36,007 nucleotides of DNA from a virus: IMG/VR virus record IMGVR_UViG_3300044998_000363, positions 1-36,007 of that record; one strand, 5' to 3'. Position numbers and translations under genes: made by a program. Positions 7,062 through 11,969 of this stretch are shown here, one piece after another (the first letter of the stretch is position 1; every line of letters starts with the position of its first letter). The notes beneath the pieces were generated by a model. That model ran no database searches. It was not told the DNA's origin and saw only the letters and a list, made by a program, of their open reading frames with translations.

Positions 7062-7281
7062 CCGCGACCCCCGCGCCCGCCCCAACGGCCGTCCCTGCTC
7101 CGTCGGCACCCTGCTTGGCGAGCTCAGCGACGACGACCGCGCCACCCTCGAAGACTGGCTCGCCGACACCCGCTACTCCGAGTCCGGCATCTGGGCCGAG
7201 CTCAAGGCCGAGGGCCACCTGATCGGCCGGCAGTCCATCGGCCGCCACCGCAGGGAGCAGTGCCGCTGTGTCGCTGGCTGA
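7048..7281 (+). CDS. Small HTH-like protein, 77 aa
   Basis: GTG start. After an Arg/Pro-rich N-terminus (A-L-A-D-R-D-P-R-A) the protein has two helices and a likely recognition segment (SESGIWAELKAEGHLIG, then QSIGRHR), the layout of a small helix-turn-helix DNA binder. It precedes the phosphoesterase gene with a 14-bp overlap. Its first residues resemble that gene's N-terminus (S-L-A-D-R-D-P). A role as regulator or DNA-targeting partner of the phosphoesterase is a guess. Confidence 0.65.
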   Translation: MALADRDPRARPNGRPCSVGTLLGELSDDDRATLEDWLADTRYSESGIWAELKAEGHLIGRQSIGRHRREQCRCVAG

Positions 7282-8287
7282 CCGCGATCCGGGCCGCGCC
7301 GACGAGGTGCAGCAGCTGCGCGACGCCCTCACCCGCGCCCAGCGGGCCCTGGCGTCGGAGAAGCAGCGCACCGAGCACCTCGTCGACGCCACCATCGTCG
7401 CCGTCCGCGACGCCACGCTTGCCTTCGGCCCCATCGAGCCCGTCGCCGCGCCGGCCCCCGACCGCCGCCGCAAGGACGCCGAGCACGCCCTGTGGCACCT
7501 GACGGACTGGCAGGGCGCGAAGCGCACCACCAGCTACGACAGCGACGTGATGCGCCAGCGCGTCATCCGCTTCTGCGAGCGCGCCGTGCGCATCACCGAC
7601 ATCCAGCGCGCCGACCACCCCATCAAGGACTGCACCATCCTGCTCGGCGGCGACATGATCGAGGGCCTGTTCAACTTCCCGACGCAGCCGTTCGAGATCG
7701 ACGCCACCCTGTTCGAGCAGTTCGTCACCGTCGGCCGGCTCCTGGCGGACGTGGTGCGCCGCGCCCTGGCCACCTACGAGAACGTGACCGTCGTCGCCGA
7801 GTGGGGCAACCACGGCCGGCTCGGGTCGAAGCGGGCCGCGGTGCCGCGCTCCGACAACGCCGACCGCATGACGTATGAGCTCGCCCGCTCACTGCTGGAG
7901 GGCGAGCCGCGACTGACGTGGCAGGACTGCCCCGAGGACATTCAGCGGGTGCAGATCGGGGAGTACCGGGCCCTGCTGGTGCACGGCGACGAGATCGGCC
8001 GCAACGGCTTCGCGTCGCCGATGACGATCGTGAACCACTGCTCGCGCTGGCAGTCGGGCGCCTACCCGTGGCGCTTCACCGACGTGTACGTCGGGCACTA
8101 CCACCAGCACCAGCAGTGGGCGCTGCCCTCGGGTGAGGGTGCGGTGTACATGACGGGCTCGACGGAGAGCGACAACCGCTACGCCGGGGTGATGCTGGCG
8201 GCGTCGTCGCAGCCGTCGCAGCGGTTGCACTTCGTGGATCCGCAGCGGGGCCGGGTGACGGCGCAGTACAAGGTGTGGCTCGACTGA
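7268..8287 (+). CDS. Calcineurin-like metallophosphoesterase (Mre11/SbcD-like fold)
   Basis: A 339-aa protein, GTG start overlapping the previous gene. The N-terminal 45 residues are helical and charged. The metal-binding motifs of the calcineurin-like family are in order: D80-W-Q (Gln in place of the usual His of D-x-H), G-G-D129, G-N181-H182-G-R, H239-G-D and G-H277-Y-H279. Phages carry such enzymes as nucleases or phosphodiesterases; Mre11-like DNA processing is plausible but not proven from sequence. The D-x-Q change may alter metal use. The stop is two bases before the RNA-like element at 8289. Confidence 0.8.
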   Translation: MSLADRDPGRADEVQQLRDALTRAQRALASEKQRTEHLVDATIVAVRDATLAFGPIEPVAAPAPDRRRKDAEHALWHLTDWQGAKRTTSYDSDVMRQRVIRFCERAVRITDIQRADHPIKDCTILLGGDMIEGLFNFPTQPFEIDATLFEQFVTVGRLLADVVRRALATYENVTVVAEWGNHGRLGSKRAAVPRSDNADRMTYELARSLLEGEPRLTWQDCPEDIQRVQIGEYRALLVHGDEIGRNGFASPMTIVNHCSRWQSGAYPWRFTDVYVGHYHQHQQWALPSGEGAVYMTGSTESDNRYAGVMLAASSQPSQRLHFVDPQRGRVTAQYKVWLD

Positions 8288-8288
8288 C

Positions 8289-8367
8289 GGGGCCGGAAGG
8301 CATCGACTCCTGAGCAGACCGGCACGCCGACCTCAGGGGGACCTGGGTTCGATTCCCAGCGGCTCCA
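8289..8367 (+). ncRNA. tmRNA tRNA-like domain without an mRNA-like domain
   Basis: The 7-bp acceptor GGGGCCG (8289-8295) pairs with CGGCTCC (8360-8366), including G3:U70, followed by discriminator A (8367) and CC-G. The T-arm is complete: CTGGG, loop TTCGATT, CCCAG (8343-8359). There is no D-stem; the D-region reads GAAGGCATCGACT, close to the GG-x-UUCGAC signature at tmRNA 5' ends. Helix CCTGAG/CTCAGG (8309-8314 with 8332-8337) sits where tmRNA helix P2 belongs, and GGAC precedes the T-stem as in tmRNA. P2 closes on a 17-nt loop, with no pseudoknots or tag frame. G3:U70 plus A73 are the alanyl-tRNA synthetase identity elements. A degenerate tRNA-Ala or an att-site relic is the alternative. 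Confidence 0.6.
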
Positions 8368-8465
8368 CCGATCCCTACCGCTGCGACCATTGCGGTCGCC
8401 GCTTCGTCGTGCCGTCACTGGCGGCCGACTGTCTCGCACGACACACGCTCAACCTCGAGGAGTGA
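8368..8465 (+). pseudogene. C2H2-finger ORF fragment lacking a start codon
   Basis: The frame ending at TGA 8463-8465 encodes T-D-P-Y-R-C-D-H-C-G-R-R-F, then C-L-A-R-H, a clear Cys2-x12-Cys/His finger. Going upstream, the frame passes through the RNA-like element to a stop at 8256 without any ATG, GTG or TTG. Only CTG (8310, 8343) or ATT (8352) could serve as a start. Either the gene lost its 5' end when the RNA element arrived, or it uses a rare start inside the element. Confidence 0.5.
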
Positions 8466-8472
8466 CCTGCCT

Positions 8473-8616
8473 ATGCCGCGCACCTTGCGGCGTTGCGGTC
8501 ACTCGGGCTGCGTGCGCTTGACGCAGTACGACCGTTGCCCTGACCACGCGGGGGTATCCGATGCGATACGAGCTGGACGACACGCAGCCGTTGGACATGG
8601 GACCGCTGCTGCGTGA
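8473..8616 (+). CDS. Small zinc-knuckle ORF, HNH-leader-like, 47 aa
   Basis: ATG preceded by GAGGAG. The first 27 residues (M-P-R-T-L-R-R-C-G, then G-C-V-R and R-C-P-D-H) look like the metal knuckle in front of some HNH endonucleases; no HNH core follows. After about position 8553 the codons become atypical (gta, ata, cga, gtt) and the good coding moves to the +1 frame at ATG 8561. The last 20 residues are therefore probably not a natural product, and the two ORFs may be one gene. Confidence 0.45.
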   Translation: MPRTLRRCGHSGCVRLTQYDRCPDHAGVSDAIRAGRHAAVGHGTAAA

Positions 8617-8707
8617 CCCGCCGTGCCCCGAGTGCGGCATGGGCACGTCGCGCTACGGGCAGTGCCTCGACTGCGAGCAGTGCCACCACGAGGGCGACTG
8701 CGGGTGA
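8561..8707 (+). CDS. Cys-rich small protein, 48 aa
   Basis: ATG after GGGGG. The N-terminus is acidic (M-R-Y-E-L-D-D-T-Q-P-L-D-M); the C-terminal half holds C-P-E-C, C-L-D-C and C-H-H/C, enough for one or two zinc ions. It overlaps the preceding ORF by 56 bases in another frame, an overlap much larger than usual here. It ends in a GTGA overlap with the next gene. The function is unknown. Confidence 0.55.
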   Translation: MRYELDDTQPLDMGPLLRDPPCPECGMGTSRYGQCLDCEQCHHEGDCG

Positions 8708-8937
8708 TCGTGCCCGGCGCCCCCACGGCCGTCATGCTGGCGTCGCTGCGACCCAAGCCGGTGGACTTCACCGCCGTCTGCCCCACCTGCTCGACCGACG
8801 CAACGTTCCGCTCGACGCCGTTCTCGCATACCCCGCTCACCGAGATGACGCCGGGCGTGCGGTCCCGCTGCTGCGTGCTGACGCACGTGCCATGCGGGCC
8901 ATGCCCGTGCCACAACTGCCGAACGGAGGCCACATGA
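8704..8937 (+). CDS. Cys-rich hypothetical protein, 77 aa
   Basis: GTG start in a GTGA overlap; a second GTG at 8710 and an ATG at 8734 are alternatives. The product has C-P-T-C in the middle and a C-terminal cluster C-C-V-L-T-H, C-G-P-C-P-C and C. With 9 cysteines in 77 residues it is likely to bind zinc. The region is somewhat less GC-biased than its neighbours. It leads directly into the lysis gene with an ATGA overlap. Confidence 0.5.
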   Translation: MIVPGAPTAVMLASLRPKPVDFTAVCPTCSTDATFRSTPFSHTPLTEMTPGVRSRCCVLTHVPCGPCPCHNCRTEAT

Positions 8938-9818
8938 GCGCCATCGTCGGCATCGACACGTGGGCCGAGTGGGGCTGCCGGCCGGTCACGCTCGAGCGCA
9001 ACCCGCGCCCCGTCGGCGTGGCCGTCCACTACCCCGGCCCCGGCTGGTACGCCTTCGACTCGCACGCGAAGTGCCGCGAGGTCGTGCGCGCATGGGACGC
9101 GCAGCACCGCGCCCGCGGCTCCCGCATGCTGGAGTACGGGGCGATCATCTGCCAGCACCGCATCGTGCTCGAAGGCCGCAACCGCGCATCCGACCCGATG
9201 ACGCGCGTGGGCAGCAACGGCACCTACGCGAGCAACAGTTCGCACCTGAGCGTCCAGCTGATGCGCGGCACCAACGACAAGCCGCCGACCGACATGGAGC
9301 TCCGCGCGCTCGGTGAGTGGATCGCGCTACTGCGGAAGGCCGGCGCTGGCGGTCAGGTCCGCGGGCACCGCGACTTCTACGCGACCTCGTGCCCGGGCGA
9401 CCCGCTGTACCGGGCGCTGCCCACCATCGACCGCTACGCCGACGAGGCAGGGAACGAGCCAATGGCCGAGTACGCCGACTACCACAGCGTCTACAACGTG
9501 AGCGTCCCGCGTGGCCGCGAGGTCACCCTGGCGACGGTGGACACTACGAAGCACGACGGGCAGGCGCTGCTGTTCAACGCTCAGTTCGCGTTCAAGACGG
9601 GCACCATCGCGCCGTCGCGTGCTCGGCTGCGCTTCGTGCGGGTGCCGAAGGGCGACGGGACCGGCGAGGCCGACCTCGAGCCGACCCGCAACGTGTGGCG
9701 CGGCGTCCACAACCACGTGTTCGTCGGCGGCGACAAGGTGGAGGTGCGGGTCACCTTCTCCGGGCGCGGCAACGTGACGCTCAACTACCTGCACTTCAAG
9801 GCTGCACGGTTCGGCTGA
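8934..9818 (+). CDS. Endolysin: PGRP-type N-acetylmuramoyl-L-alanine amidase
   Basis: A 294-aa protein; the ATG overlaps the upstream stop and follows GGAGG. The N-terminal domain has the zinc ligands of the PGRP/type-2 amidase family: H32 in V-A-V-H-Y, H145 in R-G-H-R-D and C153 in T-S-C-P-G-D. It should cut the bond between N-acetylmuramic acid and L-alanine of the stem peptide at the end of infection. Residues 175 to 294 form a beta-rich domain (YNVSVPRGREVTL to NVTLNYLHF), probably for cell-wall binding. No signal peptide is visible, so release depends on a holin; a holin-like gene lies close downstream. Confidence 0.85.
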   Translation: MSAIVGIDTWAEWGCRPVTLERNPRPVGVAVHYPGPGWYAFDSHAKCREVVRAWDAQHRARGSRMLEYGAIICQHRIVLEGRNRASDPMTRVGSNGTYASNSSHLSVQLMRGTNDKPPTDMELRALGEWIALLRKAGAGGQVRGHRDFYATSCPGDPLYRALPTIDRYADEAGNEPMAEYADYHSVYNVSVPRGREVTLATVDTTKHDGQALLFNAQFAFKTGTIAPSRARLRFVRVPKGDGTGEADLEPTRNVWRGVHNHVFVGGDKVEVRVTFSGRGNVTLNYLHFKAARFG

Positions 9819-10640: not shown

Positions 10641-10840
10641 TGCGACGTGCCCTGCTCGCCGTGACCGCACTCGCCTGGCTCATCCTGCCCGCGCTACCCA
10701 AGTCGCTGCTCAGCCTCGCCGCCGTCGTCTGGCTGTGCGCGTGGATGCGCGGCGAGTGGAGACGGACACACCCTGACCGGCGCGAGGTGGACGAGGCGCT
10801 GGTGCTGCTTGAGATCGAAGCCAACGAGGAGCGGCGATAG
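10640..10840 (+). CDS. Small two-span membrane protein, 66 aa
   Basis: ATG coupled to the previous stop. Two hydrophobic helices (ALLAVTALAWLILPAL and LLSLAAVVWLCAWM) are followed by a charged tail with W-R-R-T-H-P-D-R-R and an acidic helix. It could be a second holin or antiholin given the lysis genes just upstream, but no specific motif proves this. Its stop overlaps the GTG of the methyltransferase gene. Confidence 0.65.
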   Translation: MRRALLAVTALAWLILPALPKSLLSLAAVVWLCAWMRGEWRRTHPDRREVDEALVLLEIEANEERR

Positions 10841-11466
10841 TGCTCACCCCCCACGAAGTCGCCGACCAGTGGGAGCAAGCCGCCCACCGCCCCGACGCCG
10901 ACGCCTGCATCCATCCGTCCGGCTGGGACCGCGGCGACTACGAGGCGTCCGGCCGGCAGGCAGCGAACAAGCTCATCGCCACCGCCGCCAAGCACCAGAC
11001 CACCGCGCACAGCTGGCTCGACTACGGCTGCGGCAACGGGCGCGTCCTGGCGCCCCTCACCCGCCTCGTCCCCGAGGCCCACGGCTACGACACCAGCCCC
11101 ACCTTCGTCGCCCAGGCGCGCGACCGAGGCTGCACCGCCACCACCCACGCCGCTAGCCTCACCCCGCCCTACGACGCGGTCTACGCCCTCGCCGTCCTCA
11201 TCCACCACACCCACGACGGCGGCGCCGGCCTGCTCGCCACGCTCGTCGACCTCACCGCGCCGGGCGGCCTGGTCATCTTCGACCTCGGCGTCCACACCCA
11301 GCCGCGCATTGCGGCCAACTGGACCGACGTCACCATCTGGACGCCGCAGCAGCTGGACGACGTGCTCGCCACGCTGCCCGTCGAGGTGCTGGCCAGCGCC
11401 CGCCACGACGAGCCGTTCACCTACGGCGTGGAGCGCGACCAGACGCACGTCCTGCGCAGGCTGTAG
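10840..11466 (+). CDS. Class I SAM-dependent methyltransferase
   Basis: 208 aa; GTG overlaps the previous stop and follows GAGGAG. Motif I is W-L-D-Y-G-C-G-N-G-R (about residues 61 to 70), the acidic end of strand 2 is G-Y-D-T-S, and the later A-P-G-G-L-V-I-F-D-L is typical of post-motif III. The fold matches small-molecule or sugar methyltransferases rather than DNA methylases: no D/N-P-P-Y/F motif is present. It lies in a three-gene cassette with a second methyltransferase and a glycosyltransferase, so methylation of a glycan on virion or host surface is likely (inference). Confidence 0.8.
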   Translation: MLTPHEVADQWEQAAHRPDADACIHPSGWDRGDYEASGRQAANKLIATAAKHQTTAHSWLDYGCGNGRVLAPLTRLVPEAHGYDTSPTFVAQARDRGCTATTHAASLTPPYDAVYALAVLIHHTHDGGAGLLATLVDLTAPGGLVIFDLGVHTQPRIAANWTDVTIWTPQQLDDVLATLPVEVLASARHDEPFTYGVERDQTHVLRRL

Positions 11467-11969
11467 TGCCCACCAGCAGCCTGGCCGGCGCCCCCAAGTC
11501 CGTCCACCTCGTGTGGCAGACCAAGCCGCAGCGCATCCTCGACGTCGGCTGCGGCGCCGGCACCTACGGCGTGCTCCTGCGCGGCTTCCTCGACGGCCCG
11601 CCCATCGTCGACGGCTGCGAAGCCTGGCCCGACTACGTCGTCCGCTACCGGCTGCGCGGCATCTACGACCATCTTCACCTGTGCTACGCCCACGAGCTCG
11701 GCGACGACGTGCTCGCCACCTACGACACCGTGTTCATGGGCGACGTCATCGAGCACATGCCCAAGGACGAGGCGCTCGCCCTGCTCGAGCGGATCCCCGG
11801 CTGGGTCGTCATCGCCACCCCCGAGCACCACTTCCACAACGGCGACGGTCTGCCCCCCACCGAGGCGCACGTCTCGCACTGGACCCGCGACGACTTCGAC
11901 GGCACCGGCCGGCTCGACCACTACGAGGTGTGGATGGCCGGCCAGTACGTCCGCCTGCGGCCCCGCTAG
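11466..11969 (+). CDS. SAM-dependent methyltransferase-like protein
   Basis: 167 aa from a GTG sharing one base with the previous stop (TAGTG). Motif I is I-L-D-V-G-C-G-A-G-T-Y-G at about residues 23 to 34. A D-V-I-E-H-M motif follows, as in methyltransferase family 11/12 enzymes, then W-V-V-I-A-T-P. It has no DNA methylase catalytic motif. It is shorter than the preceding methyltransferase and shows only motif-level similarity to it, so the two are not a recent duplication. A glycan substrate is suggested by the adjacent glycosyltransferase. Confidence 0.75.
   Translation: MPTSSLAGAPKSVHLVWQTKPQRILDVGCGAGTYGVLLRGFLDGPPIVDGCEAWPDYVVRYRLRGIYDHLHLCYAHELGDDVLATYDTVFMGDVIEHMPKDEALALLERIPGWVVIATPEHHFHNGDGLPPTEAHVSHWTRDDFDGTGRLDHYEVWMAGQYVRLRPR

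Follow-up and report, generated by a model that had tools for sequence, protein, structure and literature searches.

The tailed phage genome examined here encodes an RNA of about 80 bases that is almost certainly a tmRNA reduced to its tRNA-like domain (TLD), with no tag-coding half, and this RNA is a member of a widespread family of phage RNAs, hereafter mini-TLDs, that is nearly restricted to viruses. Trans-translation is nearly universal in bacteria and is essential in some of them. The window, i.e., the whole stretch of DNA that was analysed, is an entire IMG/VR virus record of 36,007 bases, with the terminase, portal, major head and tape-measure genes of a tailed phage.

Rfam cmscan matched the tmRNA model RF00023 to positions 8289-8370 of the window (57.8 bits, above the gathering score of 47; E 2.6e-20), in an alignment that runs from model position 1 to 374 with the interior deleted. 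The pseudoknots are lost with that interior, and the roughly 30 nt that remain hold no mRNA-like domain (resume codon, tag frame and stop). Thus, the original prediction, made from the letters alone, of a tmRNA tRNA-like domain lacking both tag frame and pseudoknots was borne out, and a search with Rfam and ARAGORN for the full tmRNA or decoding tRNA that would have overturned it found neither at the site, with ARAGORN calling no tRNA or tmRNA for the element. A piece of a permuted tmRNA was also considered and rejected, as the permuted model reached only 21.8 bits.

All parts of the RNA lie on the plus strand. The acceptor stem joins GGGGCCG (8289-8295) to CGGCTCC (8360-8366) by 7/7 pairs in the RF00023 alignment and sets G3 (8291) opposite U70 (8364), with discriminator A73 at 8367. 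Behind it, the encoded CC (8368-8369) is followed by G, so that the final A of CCA is absent from the DNA. The D-region (8296-8307), placed by the same alignment, consists of GAAGGCA and UCGAC and has no D-stem; its UCGAC supplies the equivalents of E. coli tmRNA U17, C18, G19, A20 and C21. The alignment also places the GGAC junction (8339-8342) ahead of the T-stem, and its A is the counterpart of E. coli tmRNA A334, counted back from the 3' end of the E. coli molecule. A T-arm with 5/5 pairs, CTGGG-TTCGATT-CCCAG (8343-8359), completes a set of TLD features of tmRNA that includes the G3:U70 and A73 acceptor and the missing D-stem. Between D-region and junction, helix P2 pairs TCCTGAG (8308-8314) with CTCAGGG (8332-8338) over 7/7 pairs, both strands being supported by pairing and covariation. 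The interior of P2 had been described as a 17-nt loop that replaces the pseudoknots and tag frame. The replacement stands, but the loop is not a plain one, as it contains a conserved hairpin, CGG-CACG-CCG (8320-8329), whose 3 pairs show compensatory changes in relatives and which caps P2 where the entire mRNA-like domain would otherwise be.

The folding stability of the window RNA was not above chance when compared with shuffled sequences (z -0.84), and adopting the TLD fold costs it 0.6 kcal/mol relative to its minimum-energy structure; in 58 of 71 relatives this cost is within 2 kcal/mol. Folding energy is therefore uninformative, and the case against chance rests on comparison with relatives, in the form of covariation.

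Relatives were collected from IMG/VR by a first pattern that specified only UCGAC, a gap of 18-48, GGAC and the T-arm, and which matched at least 120 stretches, at least about 110 of them genuine mini-TLD copies. Among the matches listed, 114 loci, which take in the window and four isolate phages (five loci), yielded 88 distinct sequences in which all 7 acceptor pairs form. A second pattern, run as a complete scan for the CCGCAYGCGG subgroup and containing no D-region or acceptor letters, found 95 stretches. Because about 41 of the 95 were also among the first-pattern matches listed, IMG/VR is roughly estimated to hold 250-270 first-pattern copies, a count that hinges on the exact patterns and includes redundant contigs.

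For analysis of base pairing, an alignment (A2) was made of 29 members with equal D-regions; unequal D-region lengths misplace the 5' acceptor strand. Standard pairs occupied 96.2% of pair cells, and the covariation score was 0.676, compared with 0.141 for shuffled alignments (0/500 as high) and 0.08-0.14 for slid partners. Among these 29 members, changes on both sides were found at all seven P2 pairs and all three cap-hairpin pairs, and acceptor pairs 4-7 covaried while pairs 1-3 were invariant. In relatives the two outer pairs of the T-arm covary as well. An alignment-free test of 71 sequences below 85% identity, in which the P2 register was set by the flanking invariant letters, gave P2 pairing in 88.3% of cells in the fixed register, compared with 31-36% in shifted registers and 42% after shuffling. 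The compensatory changes in related sequences on which the original prediction had depended are thus present, and the stem pairs are conserved by them.

The interior design is itself variable within limits. Cap-hairpin loops are of CAYG or GNRA type, usually flanked by AAA on the 5' side and A on the 3' side; the hairpin is CCG-CACG-CGG in Streptomyces phages and CCC-CACGA-GGG in Jojan60. The P2 region spans 19-32 nt, with one variant at 19 nt, and reaches 43 nt in two variants (L047:11908-12002 and L060:11235-11329), which form a longer hairpin of 11-14 continuous pairs and have no usual capped P2. A short tag frame hidden within the P2 region was considered and rejected, as GCN followed by a stop occurred there in 15 of the 71 sequences compared with 18.6 expected from shuffles.

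Alanine identity, predicted from G3:U70 and A73 in the window, extends to the family. Neither feature was part of the search pattern, and both are present in 88/88 distinct sequences among the matches listed, in which every Watson-Crick type is found at acceptor pairs 4-6. A G-U at acceptor pair 3 is the identity element for alanyl-tRNA synthetase (PMC3985003). In the second scan, 56 of 57 distinct sequences had a 7/7 acceptor, and these again carried G3:U70 (56/56), A73 (56/56) and the GG of the D-region (56/56), together with U17 (56/56), C18 (55/56), G19 (54/56), A20 (56/56) and C21 (55/56). Cryo-EM has shown that A15, U17 and A334 form the pocket for SmpB Trp122 and that G19 packs on SmpB, and SmpB binding is prevented by G19C (PMC8363625). 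Across many unrelated phages, these patterns point to selection on mini-TLDs for both alanine charging and SmpB contacts. Exceptions were observed at loci L357 and L371, which read UUCUAC and thus have U for G19 at the SmpB-contact site, and in Streptomyces phage Riptide (L235:777-853), which reads UAGAU and has lost GGAC; decay or an altered SmpB are possible explanations. The full CCA is encoded in 20 of the 88 distinct sequences among the matches listed, so that most members need CCA addition by the host.

The near-restriction to viruses emerged from a search of 84,980 bacterial and archaeal species genomes with a nearly identical pattern, in which only 6 of 103 stretches were mini-TLDs. 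In the other 97 no acceptor was correctly spaced, and these appear to be fortuitous hits within full tmRNAs, tRNAs or other sequence. The six carriers were Acidimicrobiales, Mycobacterium and cyanobacterial MAGs, a Prochlorococcus single cell, a Pseudanabaenaceae genome and Parafrankia EUN1f. A separate full-length tmRNA was seen in five of the six, and the mini-TLDs in these genomes may represent prophages or co-assembled phage. In Parafrankia sp. EUN1f (L228:2892-3052), which has its own full tmRNA, the mini-TLD lies within about 15 nt of a tRNA-like gene. Plasmid matches to the element were short 3'-end stretches only.

Cultured phages also carry the RNA. BLAST with the element found copies in tRNA clusters of Streptomyces phages LuckySocke, GiJojo and pSt2308 and in Stenotrophomonas phage Jojan60. 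A covariance model (R1), built from the 29 aligned members, gave mini-TLDs 53-92 bits and full tmRNAs, tRNAs and attP fragments no more than 31.6 bits; the window RNA, itself one of the 29 source sequences, scored 88.7 bits. The model added Streptomyces phages Alone3, BRock, Riptide and Shaeky and Pontimonas phage phiPsal1. Isolate carriers thus include seven Streptomyces phages, one Stenotrophomonas phage and one Pontimonas phage, in none of which the RNA is annotated as tmRNA. The gap in annotation is general, as ARAGORN called a tRNA or tmRNA at none of the 114 loci among the matches listed.

In 24 of 25 examined records the mini-TLD was present without a full tmRNA, and both were found only in a 123.6-kb phage contig (IMGVR_UViG_3300025362_000004; G003:C1, locus L017), which has a mini-TLD at 46486-46567 and a full tmRNA at 77588-77979 (94.2 bits). 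As a separate matter, unannotated full tmRNAs above the Rfam cut-off were observed in Gordonia phages GMA2 (L244:421-832), GodonK (L240:306-834) and Sixama (L241:410-831) and in Salinibacter phage SRUTV-1 (L238:1159-1534). Unannotated permuted (two-piece) tmRNAs were observed in Pseudomonas phage SM1 (L237:1420-1811; betaproteobacterial form) and Synechococcus phage S-CRM01 (L239:765-986; cyanobacterial form). The GMA2 tRNA cluster also contains a Pistol ribozyme (RF02679, 56.8 bits, L244:1142-1198) directly after tRNA-Trp.

In the window, a single base separates the start of the RNA from the TGA that closes an exonuclease family gene (7268-8287, plus strand; phrog_284, E 1.7e-39), and the RNA is followed by a long ORF with an endolysin-family match (8613-9818, plus strand; phrog_1493, E 8e-14). 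Neither a sigma-70 promoter nor an intrinsic terminator was found beside it. Further downstream, the segment 10840-13665 contains methyltransferase-domain ORFs (10840-11466 and, more weakly, 11466-11969), followed by a long ORF that matches a glycosyltransferase family. The excision from a phage mRNA that had been proposed from this position may apply in the window but is not general, because the nearest predicted genes of many relatives, with neighbouring ORFs called mechanically, lie on the opposite strand. Among relatives of the window's exonuclease gene, the RNA was found in 0 of 24 longer contigs and within 3 kb at 0 of 80 loci. Its absence from the 24 related contigs indicates that it is dispensable in the window's lineage, and patchy presence within one lineage is as expected of an accessory gene. 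No DNA-level relatives of the window region were found among phage isolates.

Elsewhere, the surroundings vary. The nearest long neighbours include a downstream major head protein (7/38) as well as portal, terminase, head protease and primase; known-function neighbours are mostly head, packaging or replication genes, and no common protein partner was found beside the RNA. In a subgroup that includes L043 the mini-TLD closely precedes the major capsid gene, and in phiPsal1 (L232:1500-1578) it lies between the prohead protease and capsid genes. No SmpB or RF-1-domain (ArfB-like) protein was found in 26 records, so that host factors would be used.

The most likely function, favoured here with moderate confidence, would be that of a decoy: charged with alanine and bound to SmpB, the RNA would enter stalled ribosomes but bring no tag template, in agreement with the earlier suggestion that the RNA competes with host trans-translation. 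Maturation of the RNA would fall to host RNase P and the CCA-adding enzyme, and host alanyl-tRNA synthetase would charge it through the G3:U70 and A73 determinants seen in the sequence. Host SmpB would bind the D-loop and GGAC junction, the nucleotides for which are likewise present. Host tmRNA would then face a rival in the complex of Ala-TLD, SmpB and EF-Tu, both for SmpB and for the vacant A site of a stalled ribosome; there the Ala-TLD could accept the nascent chain but would provide no resume codon. As a result, host trans-translation and tagging would be blocked or diverted during infection. Against this reading stand the absence of the RNA from the 24 contigs related to the window and the exceptions at the SmpB-contact site in L357, L371 and Riptide. 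The outcome could be a terminal trap or an untagged rescue, and the sequence does not separate the two. A broader formulation, offered only tentatively, is that mini-TLDs constitute a large, virus-specific family of alanine-charged, SmpB-dependent, template-less peptide acceptors that convert tag-and-destroy into untagged rescue or a trap, perhaps to counteract mRNA cleavage triggered by defence.

Tagless rescue as such, in which the charged TLD with SmpB accepts the chain and adds one alanine and host factors recycle the ribosome, would spare phage proteins tag-directed proteolysis and free ribosomes. Alanine identity and the SmpB contacts are both strictly conserved, which suggests action on the ribosome rather than mere titration, and tag-frame-less mitochondrial tmRNAs are conserved along with SmpB (PMC11915505). 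Nevertheless, this outcome is judged unlikely, as the 26 records contain no gene for a release factor, ArfB-like protein or SmpB, leaving release to the host, and the one TLD-only assay of which PMC4131195 gives an account resulted in inhibition.

That assay also bears on the less probable proposal that the RNA is simply a sponge, titrating SmpB with charging irrelevant, or else titrating alanyl-tRNA synthetase. According to the account in PMC4131195, which cites Mao 2009, a similar TLD-only molecule inhibited tmRNA in E. coli whether chargeable or not, perhaps by titration of SmpB (PMC4131195, PMC11915505; Mao et al. 2009 RNA Biol 6:355). An SmpB sponge needs neither G3:U70 nor A73, yet both are invariant next to freely changing acceptor pairs 4-6, and a sponge for alanyl-tRNA synthetase would need neither the D-loop nor P2. 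Because inhibition reportedly needs no charging, titration alone leaves the invariance of G3:U70 unexplained, and the conservation of G3:U70 together with the SmpB contacts favours ribosome entry as Ala-TLD-SmpB.

That the RNA is a tRNA with an unusual anticodon arm, used in decoding or suppression, or else a tRNA-like processing mark in late mRNAs, is very improbable. Among the matches listed, a tRNA gene occurs no more than 1.5 kb away at 22 of 114 loci, and other loci precede the major head gene. However, the lack of ARAGORN calls and of a D-stem, the tmRNA-type UCGAC and GGAC, and the preference of Rfam for tmRNA over RF00005 within their shared clan all argue against this reading; furthermore, a 7-bp P2 with an inner hairpin is not an anticodon arm with its 5-bp stem and 7-nt loop. 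So does the frequent position of the nearest predicted genes on the opposite strand. A piece of host ssrA serving as attP of a temperate phage, as in phages TClif and Squirty, which carry only the ssrA 3' end beside an integrase, can be set aside, as the window RNA has both TLD ends, the cap is conserved, a tyrosine integrase occurs in just 4 of 27 records, the window not being among them, and such attP fragments reach about 15-16 bits with R1, far from the range of mini-TLDs.

What is new here is how broad the family is, that its members share a capped-P2 design, that their stems covary, and that the determinants of charging and of SmpB contact are conserved together; the open-access literature searched contained no account of a wider phage TLD-only family, of the capped P2 or of P2 covariation. 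The cultured Streptomyces and Stenotrophomonas phages make it directly testable whether phages disarm or reprogramme ribosome rescue, and in the mini-TLD nature offers a minimal ligand with which SmpB and tmRNA can be dissected.

The kind of molecule is already known, from DS6A and from tag-less organellar tmRNAs. Contrary to the statement in the original prediction that no stand-alone form had been described, the tmRNA of mycobacteriophage DS6A was given as 'TLD only' in 2014 and again in 2025 (PMC4131195 Table 2; PMC11915505). By its description, it resembles the mini-TLD as a phage tmRNA cut to little more than the TLD, and the same role has been proposed for it; the reports of it concern DS6A as one phage, and the mini-TLD family is large. 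Since the DS6A integration site is listed as tRNA-Lys and not the tmRNA gene (PMC10865867), its RNA is not explained by an attachment site. Full-length tmRNA (RF00023) shares the acceptor with G3:U70 and A73, the stemless D-loop, GGAC and the T-arm, but has roughly 300 nt, including the tag frame and pseudoknots, where the mini-TLD has its capped P2 region. The tmRNAs of jakobid mitochondria and Mallomonadaceae plastids (~65 bp) likewise lack a coding region (PMC11915505); these arose by reductive evolution, and the mitochondrial form has a known SmpB partner, whereas mini-TLDs are phage genes. Finally, the Thermus TLD fragment in the SmpB co-crystal 2CZJ (PMC3985003) similarly joins the 5' and 3' ends through a short loop to give a minimal SmpB ligand, but its UUCG closure was engineered, whereas the mini-TLD is closed by a natural, covarying P2 and cap hairpin.
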